Source of the DNA: Ignavibacteriota bacterium
GTDB taxonomy: Bacteria > Bacteroidota > Ignavibacteria > UBA10030 > SZUA-254
Assembly: GCA_025358305.1 (NCBI GenBank)
Contig: JANYJZ010000005.1
Location: 62,001 to 126,000 of the forward strand
Direction of reading: 5' to 3'
DNA length: 64,000 nucleotides
Both the position numbers and the translations under genes were made by a program. Positions 8,098 to 13,989 of the stretch are shown piece after piece (the first letter of the stretch is position 1; each line of letters starts with the position of its first letter). The notes beneath the pieces were generated by a model. It made no database searches. It saw only the letters and a program-made list of their open reading frames with translations, and was not told the DNA's origin.

Positions 8098-9300
8098 ATG
8101 AAACCTCTCATCGTTCATATCCTGTTCGTTCTCATCGTCCTCCTCTTTGTCGCGGGAGGGTGCGAGCAGCGCTTCGATCTGTCGCAGCTGCCGGACCCGG
8201 GCCAGGCGGTCTCCCTTGGCGATACGAACTACGTCGAGATCTATCCGCCCTGGGTCGGGTTCGAGAGTCCGCAGGCGGTCCTCGTAGGGAACGACCAGCT
8301 CCTCTATGTCGCGGACCATGACCGCAATGAGATCGAGATGCTCGACGCAGGCGGGACGGTCCTGAGCCGCAGGAGCATCCTCCACCCGACCTGTCTTGCG
8401 CAGAATTCGAAGCTTGACCTCTACGTCGGCGGGGAGACCATCGCGCCGAATGGCGTCGATACCATCGGGGCGATCTACCGGATCTATCTCGCCCGGTTTG
8501 ACACTTCGTACATCTCCCGGATCGACACCGTCATCAACGGGTCGACGGGGGACACACTTGTCACGGTGACGCGGCGCGACACGTCGTACTTCGCCAATCA
8601 CGCCCTCGACCGCGCGGAGACGCGCATTGTGTGGCAAGACGCCGCTCGGCCCGGCCGCCGGTACACGGGCATCGGCATCATCCCCGACAACGGATACCTC
8701 GTGACGCGCACCGGACCCGACAACATCAGCTTCGTGGACCCCGATTCGCGCGTGCTCCTCTTCAACAGGAACGACCTCCTTGAGACGCCCCTCGGAGACC
8801 TCGTGACACGGCCTTCCGGCGGAACGGCCATCACGGATATCCGGAACCTCACGGGCATCATGATCTTTCCGTCGAGCAGGGATTTCATCGTCACGCAGAG
8901 CTCCGACGGGATCGCCTACGGCGCCGTCTGGATGGTCTACCAGAGCACGGCGGATTTCACGGGATGGCTCCCGAAGTTCGATCCTTCGCGCGCGGACCAG
9001 CGGGGCACCGATTTCATCCTACCGAACCGCTACCAGAACGCCACGTCCGCCGCCTTCGACCGGCGCCGGCGCGAGATCTTCATCGTTGACGCGCAATTGG
9101 ACAGCGTCGTGAAGTTCAACCGCAACGGCCAATTCCGCTCCGAGTCCTTCGGATCGGCGAAGTCCAAGTCAGACCTCCTTCCGGGCCTGAACAATCCGCG
9201 CGGGGTCGCCTTTTCCAACGACTGTACGCTCTACATCGCCGATACGGGCAACAAGATCATCCGGCGGTTCAGGCTCTCGACGCAGACCACGTGTAATTGA
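8098..9300 (+). CDS. lipoprotein with NHL-like repeats
   Basis: Lipobox VAGGCEQ; C-term LNNPRGVAFSNDCTLYIADTGNKIIRRFRL is NHL-like. Confidence 0.7.
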   Translation: MKPLIVHILFVLIVLLFVAGGCEQRFDLSQLPDPGQAVSLGDTNYVEIYPPWVGFESPQAVLVGNDQLLYVADHDRNEIEMLDAGGTVLSRRSILHPTCLAQNSKLDLYVGGETIAPNGVDTIGAIYRIYLARFDTSYISRIDTVINGSTGDTLVTVTRRDTSYFANHALDRAETRIVWQDAARPGRRYTGIGIIPDNGYLVTRTGPDNISFVDPDSRVLLFNRNDLLETPLGDLVTRPSGGTAITDIRNLTGIMIFPSSRDFIVTQSSDGIAYGAVWMVYQSTADFTGWLPKFDPSRADQRGTDFILPNRYQNATSAAFDRRRREIFIVDAQLDSVVKFNRNGQFRSESFGSAKSKSDLLPGLNNPRGVAFSNDCTLYIADTGNKIIRRFRLSTQTTCN

Positions 9301-9326
9301 CTGCATTGCCCCAGGAGACCAAACTC

Positions 9327-10433
9327 GTGAAGACACTGACTCTTTGTAGCCTGCTTCTCATGATTCTTCCGAGCGCATACGCGCAGGACCGCACTGCTCC
9401 CGCTTCCGGTGGCAAACATTCTACGATCTCGATTATTGCGCGCGATTCCGCGACGGGCGACATAGGCATCGTCGTCCGATCGGGCATCCTCGCCGCAGGG
9501 TCGATCGTCCCGTGGGCCAAGGCCGGCGTCGGCGGGGTCGCAACGCAGGGTGCTGCGAACACGCAGTGGGGAGAGGGGGCACTCGGACTCCTCGCGCAGG
9601 GGTTTCATGCCCGTGAAACGCTCGATAGCTTGGTCCACCTCGATCCCGGATCAGCCTACCGGCAAGGAGCGATCCTTGACGCGGCCGGGAACGCTGCGGC
9701 ATATACGGGACCTCGATGCGAACAATACGCAGGGCAATATTCGGGAACCAGCTTTAGTGTCATCGGCAATCTTCTTACAGATGAATCGGTTATCACCGTT
9801 GTCGCAAGAACGTTCGAGGCTTCTCACGGCGATTTGGCCGATCGCCTCCTTGCGGCGATGGATGCAGGCGAACGGCGCTCAGGGGAAAAAGGTCCACACC
9901 GGTCCGCAGCGATCCTCGTCGTACGAAAGGAGGGGGGATACGGAGGATTGAACGACCGCTTCATCGACCTTCGCGTCGACGATGATTCCCTCCCCTTGGT
10001 GGCTCTCCGCCGGCTCTACGGCATTTGGGCTCAGGAATATCTCTTCGAAGCGCGGCTCCGCTCCGTCGATGCCCTGCGCCGGGACAGGAACTTCTCCGGT
10101 GCGGAACAGGAGATGCAACGTCTCGTCGGGAGCATGAACGCCGTGCTCCGGGACCATCCCGACGACCCGGACGTCCTTAGCCAGGTCGCCCGGACGCTCG
10201 CCACGAACAACCTTGATCTGGAACGCGCCCTGGAGCTCGCCAAGAGGGCTATAAAGCTCGCCCCGGGCAAACTCACGCATCTTGATACACTCGCGGAGTG
10301 CCATCTCGCGCTCGGTCATTTTGACGAGGCTATCGCCATTGAATCGGAACTCGTGACGCGGGACCCCTCGAACGACACATTCTGGAAGCAGTTGCAGAAA
10401 TGTAAGGACGCCAAAGCGAAAGCCGGCCGCTAG
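9327..10433 (+). CDS. secreted DUF1028 protein with C-terminal TPR-like region
   Basis: HSTISIIARDSATGDIGIVVRSGILAAGSIVPWAKAGVGGVATQGAANTQWGEGALGLL is DUF1028-like; GTG at 9327 after GGAG precedes a signal peptide; TPR-like C-term ALELAKRAIKLAPGKLTHLDTLAECHLALGHFDEA. Confidence 0.75.
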   Translation: MKTLTLCSLLLMILPSAYAQDRTAPASGGKHSTISIIARDSATGDIGIVVRSGILAAGSIVPWAKAGVGGVATQGAANTQWGEGALGLLAQGFHARETLDSLVHLDPGSAYRQGAILDAAGNAAAYTGPRCEQYAGQYSGTSFSVIGNLLTDESVITVVARTFEASHGDLADRLLAAMDAGERRSGEKGPHRSAAILVVRKEGGYGGLNDRFIDLRVDDDSLPLVALRRLYGIWAQEYLFEARLRSVDALRRDRNFSGAEQEMQRLVGSMNAVLRDHPDDPDVLSQVARTLATNNLDLERALELAKRAIKLAPGKLTHLDTLAECHLALGHFDEAIAIESELVTRDPSNDTFWKQLQKCKDAKAKAGR

Positions 10434-10488
10434 GCCCTCTGACGTCTTCGGCTCGAGCAAGACCATCCGCGATGTTCTTTCGCAATAC

Positions 10489-10514
10489 GACCGCAGAAAT
10501 GCGGTCTTTTTTTT
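10489..10514 (+). terminator. intrinsic terminator downstream of DUF1028 gene
   Basis: GACCGC AGAAAT GCGGTC followed by a T-run. Confidence 0.8.
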
Positions 10515-10720
10515 GTCCCCAGGCGCGCTGGCGCATTCCACTGCAAAAAACGGATGAGGCCACGGTGGCCGTCAGGGCTCGGGCAGAATGCTCAGATCTT
10601 GGGGGATGGGGAGGTCTAGAGGATATCGGTGCTGTTCAGCCAGAGCTGAATTGCCTGGAGGAATCGCTCGCGCCAGACGCGGGCTTCGCCCGCCAGTTTG
10701 GCGGCAAGGGGGGCAAAAAA

Positions 10721-10884
10721 ATGCGTGCCCCGGGCGATTGTACCAAGGGGAGGCGACTCGGTGACAATGTGGGTGCCCAGGGCACGCGAATGGTGTTGCG
10801 ACATGAGCGGTGAAGCATTCTGTGAGCCCAGCTGTCGGATCAGGGGGAGGCGACCTGATGGCGACGTGGGGGCCGGGCTCACAA
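10721..10884 (-). ncRNA. candidate tandem two-stem-loop structured RNA (sRNA or 3'-UTR element) with C-rich loops
   Basis: Two units (10821-10883 and 10723-10787) fold into the same three-stem hairpin with compensatory differences and an identical 11-nt loop GTCGCCTCCCC; the last unit is followed by ATTTTTTT on the minus strand. Confidence 0.5.
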
Positions 10885-10915: not shown

Positions 10916-11335
10916 TCAGTGCTCGTCCAGGCCGTTCGGTACGTCGAATGGAAAATCTTGGTTCATCGCCATCCTACCGAGGACCTGTGTGATCTTCTCA
11001 AAATCCCTTGATTTATCAAAAAAGTAGTCTGCGCCGGCTTCGACGCACTCCTTCCGGATCTGCACGAACGGAAAGTTCGTGAACATGATCGCGATCGGCG
11101 AGGGGTGCAGTTTCTTGAGCTCCCTCAACAGGTCGATCCCGCTGCCGCCCGGCATCTGGACATCAAGGATGACGACGTCGGGTCTCAGGGTAAGGATCGC
11201 AGCGCTCGCGTCCACGCTGTTCGGGGCATGACCGACGATGGTCACGTTTTGTAGATCGCTCAGCATCGTCATGATCCGAGCCCGGACGATCAGAGAGTCG
11301 TCCACGATGAATACGGTGATCGCTGTTGTCCTCAT
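10916..11335 (-). CDS. single-domain (REC-only) response regulator
   Basis: VFIVDDSLIVRARIMTML...PDVVILDVQMPGGSGIDLLRELK; start taken at MRTTAITVF. Confidence 0.85.
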   Translation of the reverse strand: MRTTAITVFIVDDSLIVRARIMTMLSDLQNVTIVGHAPNSVDASAAILTLRPDVVILDVQMPGGSGIDLLRELKKLHPSPIAIMFTNFPFVQIRKECVEAGADYFFDKSRDFEKITQVLGRMAMNQDFPFDVPNGLDEH

Positions 11336-11482
11336 CTGGGTTGTCAATGGGCTTCCCCGCCTGCAGTATGGTACGAATTCGGCGGTTTGAAGAACATAGG
11401 ACGCGTGCGGATTTTTACGTAGGATATCGCCCAACCGGGTGTCGGTGTTTGTCCTACAAGGGGGGACGAACGAACGCTGGGG

Positions 11483-12124
11483 TCAGTTCGTCAGCTGGTT
11501 ATTCACGGCGTAGCGAATGAGTTCGGCGGTCGTCGAGCATTTCATCTTCTCCAGGATCCGGGTCCGGTACGTGCTGATGGTCTTCACGCTCAGGGAAAGC
11601 TCCGCGGCGGCTTCGGAGACCGATCTCCCCTTGGCGATAAGGAGGAGCACCTGGAATTCACGGTCGGAAAGGAGCTCGTGGGGGAGCCGCTTCCGGTCGG
11701 CCGACAGATCGTCAATGATGAGCTCGCTCAACGAGGCACTGAGGTACTTCCGCCCGGCCAGGATCGTGTGCACCGCATCGACGATCTCGTCCGACGGCGA
11801 GTCCTTGTTGAGGTATCCCGAGGCGCCGAGCCGCAGGACCCGGACCGCGAACTGCTCTTCGGGGTGCATCGTCAGGATCAGGACCGGGAGCTCGGGGTAG
11901 AGCCGCTTGATGTCCGACAGGGTGTCGAGACCGCTCTTCCCGGGGAGATTGATGTCGAGGATGACGAGATGAAAGGAGTGTTGCGAGAGGAATTCCATCG
12001 CCTCCGCCGCAGTGCCCGCCTCGCCGGTGACGGAGAGGCCCGCGGTCTCGTCGATGATGCGCTTGAGCCCCTGGCGCACGATGACGTGGTCGTCGACGAT
12101 GAGGATGTGCTTAGCTGCCTTCAT
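11483..12124 (-). CDS. NarL/FixJ-family response regulator
   Basis: ILIVDDHVIVRQGLKRII...VILDINLPGKSGLDTL; C-term HTH LSDREFQVLLLIAKGRSVSEAAAELSLSVKTISTYRTRILEKM. Confidence 0.9.
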   Translation of the reverse strand: MKAAKHILIVDDHVIVRQGLKRIIDETAGLSVTGEAGTAAEAMEFLSQHSFHLVILDINLPGKSGLDTLSDIKRLYPELPVLILTMHPEEQFAVRVLRLGASGYLNKDSPSDEIVDAVHTILAGRKYLSASLSELIIDDLSADRKRLPHELLSDREFQVLLLIAKGRSVSEAAAELSLSVKTISTYRTRILEKMKCSTTAELIRYAVNNQLTN

Positions 12125-13424
12125 GCGGCTTCTCCAGAGGTAAGACGATGCGCGCGGTCGTCCCCGCGCCGGGTGTTCCCGTGATCTCGACGGTCCCGCC
12201 GAACTGCGATGCGCGCTCCCTGATGCCGAGGATGCCGAACGATTTGAGCACGGCGAGGTTGTCCCGTGAAATCCCCTTCCCATTATCGATGACTTCGAGA
12301 ACGACGGAGCCGCTCTCCTGGATGAGGAGGATGCGCACCTTTGTTGCGTGCGCGTGCCGGGCGACGTTCGTCAGCGCTTCCTGGAGGATGCGGAAGACGG
12401 CCGTTGACCGCTGGTCGTCGAGGACGACGGCCTCCGGCCGGAAGGTCACGCTGCATGTGATGCCGGTATGGTGCTCGAACTCCTGCGCCTGCCACTCGAT
12501 GGCGGCCTGGATGCCGAGATTGTCGAGGACGCCCGGGCGGAGTTCCGTGGCGATCCTGCGGATCGATTTGATCGCGGAGTCGATAAGTTGCGTCATTTCC
12601 TGCGTCTTCTCGGCGAACATCGGCACGCCTGCCGGCAGTTTCTTCTCCAGCCAGGAGACATCCATCTTGAGTCCGGTCATCGCCTGGCCGAGCTCGTCGT
12701 GGATCTCGCGCGCGATACGGGTACGCTCCTCTTCCCGTGCGGATTCGACGTACGCGGCAAGCTTCCGGAGTTCGGCCTGCGATTGAAGGATCTGCTGTTC
12801 CGCGTGCTTCCTTCCACTGATGTCCTGCATCGAGCCGACCATGCGGTGTGCGACGGCCGCCGGGTCGCGGATGACGAACCCGCGGTCGAGGATGTAGGCG
12901 AACGTGCCGTCGGCCCGCTCGTAGCGGTACTCGTCCGACCATGTGCTTCCCCCGGTGTCGATGAGGCGGTGAATGCCGGCGATGATGCGCTCCTTGTCCT
13001 GGGGATGGAGATGCGTATACCAGCCAGTGATGTCGGGCGGTACATTGATCCTGTCGTGGCCGAAGAGCGTATAATAGTTCTGATTCCACCAGAGTGCGTT
13101 CGTGTCGAGGTTCCAGTCCCATACGACGTCGTTCGTTGCGTCGGAGACCAGCTGAAGACGTTCCTGGCTCTCCACGATCGTGCGGGAAAAAAGTTCCCGT
13201 TCGGTCGAATACCGGCGGATAAGAACGAACAGGAGCGTGCCTGTGAAGGCGACGTAGAGCCATCCCTTCAAGGTCTGCATATGCGACAGGACGACCGGGT
13301 CGCTGACGACCGATTCGAGGATGTTGTCCGACAGGAGGATCCAGAGGGCGCCGACGATCATGTAGATGAGAACGATCCTGAGAGCGGGAAGTCGCGGGCT
13401 GTCGCTGTGTGTTTCGTGGGTCAT
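12111..13424 (-). CDS. membrane PAS sensor histidine kinase, HisKA_3 (NarX/DegS-like)
   Basis: Two N-terminal TM segments, PAS domain, REIHDELGQAMTGLKMDVSWLEKKL, ATPase VIDNGKGI; overlaps the regulator start. Confidence 0.9.
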   Translation of the reverse strand: MTHETHSDSPRLPALRIVLIYMIVGALWILLSDNILESVVSDPVVLSHMQTLKGWLYVAFTGTLLFVLIRRYSTERELFSRTIVESQERLQLVSDATNDVVWDWNLDTNALWWNQNYYTLFGHDRINVPPDITGWYTHLHPQDKERIIAGIHRLIDTGGSTWSDEYRYERADGTFAYILDRGFVIRDPAAVAHRMVGSMQDISGRKHAEQQILQSQAELRKLAAYVESAREEERTRIAREIHDELGQAMTGLKMDVSWLEKKLPAGVPMFAEKTQEMTQLIDSAIKSIRRIATELRPGVLDNLGIQAAIEWQAQEFEHHTGITCSVTFRPEAVVLDDQRSTAVFRILQEALTNVARHAHATKVRILLIQESGSVVLEVIDNGKGISRDNLAVLKSFGILGIRERASQFGGTVEITGTPGAGTTARIVLPLEKPHEGS

Positions 13425-13899: not shown

Positions 13900-13989
13900 G
13901 GAGAGGTGGGTGAGCGGCTTAAACCAGCGGTTTGCTAAACCGCCATACGGGGTTAACCTGTATCGAGAGTTCAAATCTCTCCCTCTCCG
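13900..13989 (+). tRNA. tRNA-Ser(GCT)
   Basis: Acceptor GGAGAGG/CCTCTCC; anticodon arm GCGGT-TTGCTAA-ACCGC; long variable arm; T-arm GAGAG-TTCAAAT-CTCTC; CCA not encoded. Confidence 0.95.

Follow-up and report, generated by a model that had tools for sequence, protein, structure and literature searches.

We analysed a window of 64,000 nucleotides (the whole stretch of DNA, to which the positions below refer) from an Ignavibacteriota bacterium. A two-component cluster on its minus strand encodes a PAS histidine kinase (HisKA_3; 12111-13424, from the Pfam scan), a LuxR/NarL-type response regulator (11483-12283; Pfam Response_reg and GerE) and a REC-only response regulator (10916-11434; Pfam Response_reg, 8.7e-21) whose likely start is near position 11334 (MRTTAITVF). 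Homologues of the REC-only regulator occupy the same place in the related genomes G005 and G009, and a more diverged one does so in G010. Just downstream of the REC stop codon, the first-pass annotation had described two tandem minus-strand stem-loops with identical loops, read as a candidate anti-Shine-Dalgarno (anti-SD) small RNA. Both were found where they had been placed, with stems at 10884-10820 (32 nt past the REC stop codon) and 10787-10723. Unit A (10820-10884, minus strand) consists of an outer stem, an inner stem and an apical loop, and unit B (10723-10787, minus strand) has the same architecture, with ~69% identity to unit A and compensatory changes. The apical segment GTCGCCTCCCC is the same in the two units (10844-10854 and 10747-10757, both on the minus strand). 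Its 11 invariant nucleotides take in the closing G-C pair, so that the loop proper is the 9-nt UCGCCUCCC. The structure is asymmetric, with a C-rich internal loop of 6-11 nt on the 5' side only, between the outer and inner stems.

Unit B is followed on the minus strand by ATTTTTTT, which includes seven Ts (10721-10715) and resembles an intrinsic terminator, as had been suggested for the 3' end of a putative transcript; unit A is followed by GAATGCTT, with no T-run. The minus strand from 10900 to 10700 (201 nt) folded at -83.3 kcal/mol, compared with -56.6 +/- 4.2 for 200 shuffled sequences (z -6.3), none of which folded as well as the native one. A covariance model of type I hairpins (R1), run against 464 kb of the organism's own genome, returned the two window units only (unit A, 83.3 bits, E 3.7e-18; unit B, 85.7 bits, E 9e-19), the next best match having an E value of 3.9. 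In the 3.2-Mb genome as a whole, GTCGCCTCCCC occurs exactly three times, each time in such a hairpin, and the third of these is on contig C7.

A 97-aa open reading frame (10909-10616) spans the hairpins and was judged, from the RNA-type conservation, to be a chance overlap. On the plus strand, an ordinary terminator-like hairpin (GACCGCAGAAATGCGGTCTTTTTTTT, 10488-10525) follows a DUF1028 gene (9297-10433); it is separate from the RNA and convergent to it. The sole Rfam match of the window was a 90-nt tRNA gene (13900-13989, plus strand). In agreement with the earlier view that the hairpins belong to no named family, Rfam release 15 gave no match to them at gathering score in the window, and at relaxed thresholds no plausible family covered the hairpins in the window or at twelve homologous loci.

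A covarying hairpin family with two loop subtypes

Related hairpins share a common unit, with an outer stem of 12-13 bp, a 5' C-rich loop of 6-11 nt, an inner stem of ~10 bp and an apical loop of 9 nt. Two loop subtypes were seen, type I (UCGCCUCCC, as in both window units) and type II (GCCCUCCCA), which have a CUCC core in common that is shifted by one position between them; the longest C-run in the loops is three to four. The compensatory stem changes claimed for the window pair proved real when 11 type I sequences were compared. Base pairs were retained in 99.5% of cells, and 10 of the 22 pairs had changed on both sides, where shuffling predicts 2.5 and none of 500 shuffles reached the observed number. 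The signal was destroyed in slid-partner controls, which paired at 26-45%, and RNAalifold recovered the same fold unprompted. Type II hairpins behaved similarly (97.5% paired, both-side changes in 11 of 22 pairs).

CUCC lies within the predicted apical loop in 30 of 33 copies, and at least four Ts follow the hairpin in 24 of the 33. Conservation of the loop extends over 9-11 nt, with columns that stay invariant as the stems change; the C-rich bulge is conserved as well, the outer stem partly so, and the orientation of bulge and U-tract is consistent across copies. Modules occur in arrays of one, two and three, in which the stems covary and the loop is constant. Because CUCC is constant while the stems covary, even at locus L080, where the loop is kept on an outer stem of wholly different sequence, the family bears the signature of an RNA in which the stem is the scaffold and the loop the working part. 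A tandem triple that ends a two-component cluster in G005 (C34:78286-78578, locus L041) has a third unit with no CUCC loop (ACUUCCCCCU).

Of 15 genomes from the same bacterial family, BLAST with the window sequence picked out relatives in 10. The covariance models extended this count: R1 had been built from 11 copies, R2 from type II copies. At E <= 1, R1 matched 14 of the 15 genomes, each with at least one match of ~1.5e-8 or better. Copies number one to seven per genome; seven were reached in one well-assembled genome once R2 was applied. Outside the bacterial family, R1 gave no match with stricter filters in 398 genomes of the phylum, and R2, likewise filtered, gave only one weak, partial match in 394 genomes of the class (G587, E 0.002, 38 nt). 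In a pattern scan of named genomes the relatives were Ignavibacteria or Ignavibacteriales MAGs. Pattern matches in Omnitrophota, Pedosphaera and an uncultured bacterium are probably due to chance; none fits R1, and R2 matched two of them weakly, over the loop segment only. The third copy, the second loop subtype and the family-wide distribution go beyond the first-pass annotation.

Repeats that are multi-copy, palindromic and tandem could also be a small mobile element of the REP or MITE kind, spread as DNA, and one copy (L078) adjoins an integrase-like gene. We consider such an origin very improbable, as the copies are few, their synteny is kept across genera, the compensatory changes are those of an RNA, the U-tract orientation is fixed and blastn against plasmids and phages gave no match. 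An RNA-level function of the family is very likely, and the family itself is real, likely new and, as far as was searched, restricted to one family of Ignavibacteria.

Genomic addresses and putative transcription

Three genomic addresses of the hairpins recur across genera. At the first, found in 11 genomes, the hairpin follows a gene encoding a T9SS sorting domain and precedes one for a secreted protein (in G008 the following gene is a different one). In G004 (contig C145, L016:49-139) a group II intron match (RF00029, above gathering score) lies ~100 nt upstream of the hairpin, at a spot occupied in relatives by the end of the T9SS-sorted gene. The second address, in six genomes, carries type II hairpins after uvrC and before tRNA-Val and pyrR-pyrB. 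A role as pyrimidine attenuator was ruled out for these copies, since the tRNA-Val gene and a separate PyrR-like site stand between the hairpin and pyrR. Sub-threshold matches to the PyrR binding site RF00515 between tRNA-Val and pyrR (L028:1813-1914 and L034:1922-2034) are likely an Ignavibacteria pyr attenuator. The third address is the end of the PAS kinase, LuxR-type regulator and REC-only cluster, with two units in the window, three in G005, where they lie behind a further hybrid kinase, and one more diverged unit each in G009 and G010. No hairpin accompanies the other clusters of this two-component type in G011 and G010.

Many copies lie 6-160 nt past a stop codon or directly past a tRNA gene (tRNA-Phe at L060, tRNA-Leu at L024). 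At five loci (L032, L036, L045, L078 and L080) the upstream gene is divergent or there is no co-directional gene close by; these copies are therefore unlikely to be 3'UTRs and, if transcribed, are probably independent RNA genes. Upstream of the G011 paralogues L045 and L079, which are in unrelated loci, 31 of 50 bases are in common (maximum in 500 shuffles, 27; 36 pairs tested), which suggests that a promoter was copied along with them. Three close relatives have TTTTG-n19-TATATT directly before the hairpin, a pair of elements that we take to resemble a Bacteroidota promoter; an upstream search for a promoter motif common to all copies gave nothing significant. In the window, no promoter is visible in the 32 nt between the REC stop codon and unit A, and the simpler assumption is therefore that the REC transcript would run on into the hairpins or that a promoter within the REC gene would drive them.

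The position of many copies just past a stop codon or tRNA gene, with a U-tract at the end, may indicate that the hairpin acts only in cis, as a specialised intrinsic terminator or as a stabiliser of mRNA 3' ends. GC-rich hairpins followed by a U-tract are indeed the form of intrinsic terminators. However, a terminator requires no conserved loop, no internal bulge and no length of 65 nt, and here loop and bulge are conserved in sequence and the units form tandem arrays. Moreover, unit A, internal to its array, and several other copies have no T-run, and the five loci named above have no co-directional gene before them. A purely cis-acting 3'-end element is thus unlikely in our judgement.

The anti-Shine-Dalgarno reading of the loop

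The 3' tail of the organism's own 16S rRNA reads GGAUCACCUCCUUU (given also as GAUCACCUCC). The type I loop, UCGCCUCC, agrees with the tail segment UCACCUCC at seven of eight positions and copies UCxCCUCC; the type II loop agrees less well. SD use was counted in genes for secreted proteins, which have more dependable starts, and GGAG or GAGG was found before 23 of 80 of them (~29%), a moderate use; these motifs precede 14% of first ATGs, compared with 7% of internal ATGs. In 129 start regions of the same genome, position -1 of first ATGs is often C (45%) and rarely A (9%), a bias that may be genuine or stem from mis-called starts. Since SD use is moderate and the loop is like the 16S tail, the anti-SD idea is possible, and we regard this reading of the loop as plausible.

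The likeness to the 16S tail could also be read as that of a decoy, in which the loop mimics the anti-SD and titrates its binders, for example the pocket of bS21, bS18 and bS6 by which the anti-SD is occluded in Bacteroidia (PMC8710568). The poorer fit of the type II loop (GCCCUCCCA) to the tail tells against this; in addition, the occlusion is known from Bacteroidia, and the organism's own genome uses SD sequences. We therefore hold a 16S tail decoy to be highly unlikely. A broader and quite improbable idea is that the multi-copy anti-SD mimics would bind ribosomal or translation factors, or compete globally with the ribosome for SD sequences, and so form a lineage-wide switch between SD-led and SD-independent translation.

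Targets of the loop were looked for in several ways. Its complement, GGGAGGYGA, has 120 sites genome-wide, 3-fold more than the reversed control (41). Thirty listed sites were read, including the three in the hairpins, and hardly any lay before a start codon; the duplex energy of the loop at start regions was no better than at internal ATGs (-5.6 vs -6.3). A genome-wide set of targets was set aside, as the complement is enriched overall and not at starts; a narrow set is possible. Downstream of the T9SS-type copies, the ATG of the secreted-protein gene is preceded by GGAG in nine of nine hairpin-bearing genomes read. However, this gene was dropped as an adjacent target because GGAG, GAGGA or AGGA is likewise present in hairpin-less orthologues (G008, G009, G010 and G011). 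The candidate anti-SD small RNA of the first-pass annotation is therefore upheld as to the conserved, covarying RNA with a terminator-like 3' end, no Rfam match and an invariant C-rich loop that resembles the 16S tail, and the tests did not support its trans-acting anti-SD role, the loop complement not being concentrated at ribosome-binding sites and the GGAG beside one copy recurring, or nearly so, without the hairpin.

The lack of target enrichment would be expected of an RNA that an RNA-binding protein (for example of KH, S1 or RRM type) recognises at the loop and the C-rich bulge, and that acts either as a sponge or as a 3' tag conferring stability. The long invariant loop, the conserved bulge and the partly conserved outer stem fit such a function. 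Conservation of 9-11 nt in the loop exceeds the need of SD pairing alone, and several copies with tandem arrays are found in sponge RNAs as well. Yet no candidate protein was seen beside the copies, and a strict protein site would less readily tolerate the one-position shift of CUCC between subtypes. We regard protein binding as possible and rather doubtful.

Antisense action through the C-rich loop is the best single mechanism, and we give it about an even chance; protein binding and a plain 3'-end function are its main rivals. In the antisense model, each unit is a long hairpin exposing two unpaired C-rich stretches, the apical loop with its CUCC core and the 5' bulge, and, as most copies end in a U-tract, the hairpin may also serve as its own terminator. 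The window units would most likely be transcribed as the 3' part of the mRNA for kinase, LuxR regulator and REC protein, or from a promoter within the REC gene, and the transcript, ending at the U-tract (10721-10715), would function as one small RNA or as two. The C-rich loop would nucleate pairing with G-rich sites (GGAG, the SD core) in a limited set of mRNAs, and this pairing would block ribosome binding, as in the hairpin-module anti-SD small RNAs of Alphaproteobacteria. We infer the transcription, processing, action in trans and targets of the hairpins.

Relation to known small RNAs and implications

The 6C RNA of actinobacteria has two hairpins with C-rich loops. The present loops lack a run of six Cs, stems and phylum differ, and there is no Rfam match. 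The anti-SD small RNAs of Alphaproteobacteria (SmelA075/SmelA099, ar14/NfeR1, cuckoo and CcsR1-4) have ultraconserved loops containing CCUCC in one to four tandem modules (PMC3927594, PMC10746234, PMC10253847). SmelA075 and SmelA099 consist of three or four hairpins with the loop CCUCCUCCC in each, on variable stems, and have several copies per genome (PMC3927594); NfeR1 silences ntrB through three redundant motifs (PMC10746234); and CcsR1-4 share a transcript with a DUF1127 gene, from which RNase E releases them (PMC10253847). The present family is like them in its constant loop on variable stems, its repeated modules and its several copies per genome, and also in that some of the alphaproteobacterial RNAs are made from the 3' portion of an mRNA. 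By anatomy, the window looks like a two-module version of this design. Unlike those RNAs, the present family has an asymmetric C-rich bulge, usually a U-tract for each unit, and a place in another phylum, and its loops are UCGCCUCCC or GCCCUCCCA, not CCUCCUCCC. No DUF1127 neighbour of the CcsR kind was found by Pfam around the window copies, the C7 copy and in three other flanking proteins, or by eye at the remaining loci; the proteins scanned with Pfam were two-component, DUF1028, T9SS-sorted and PyrR-like. As the loop motif differs, the scanned neighbours include no DUF1127 gene and no family model matches, the window hairpins are not a member of the ar14/cuckoo/CcsR group.

PmaR of Agrobacterium also exposes an accessible C-rich loop on a long stem and pairs with mRNAs through it; its loop is larger, its effect mostly activating and its pairing mostly away from ribosome-binding sites (PMC6234868). 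FopS of Bacteroides, from the nearest studied phylum, comprises paralogous small RNAs of ~65-70 nt in several copies, one member derived from a 3'UTR and others intergenic or antisense, which pair through the 5' end beside start codons and have sigma-ABfr promoters (PMC11697453). The parallel with the present family lies in the multi-copy ~70-nt size and the mixed intergenic and 3'UTR origin. FopS as described has no C-rich loop module, unlike the present hairpins (PMC11697453). As to promoters, the present family offers for comparison TTTTG-n19-TATATT in three closely related genomes and no motif common to all copies.

Taken as a whole, the locus is best explained as a tandem pair of new, Ignavibacteria-specific hairpin RNAs of ~70 nt, with antisense as their most likely action, an account that we hold at about half confidence. 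They may act as small RNAs in adjusting translation, and they likely form a new RNA family whose function, we infer, is like that of the alphaproteobacterial hairpin-module anti-SD RNAs. SD use is suppressed in Bacteroidia, and in a group related to them the present family appears to have arrived at the alphaproteobacterial design independently. The finding adds a well-supported RNA family, outside Rfam, in a deep-branching and hardly studied Bacteroidota/Chlorobi lineage. If the antisense reading is true, it would link an RNA of this kind with a conserved two-component cluster and provide a natural test of how anti-SD regulators work in a lineage in which SD sequences serve only a fraction of the genes.
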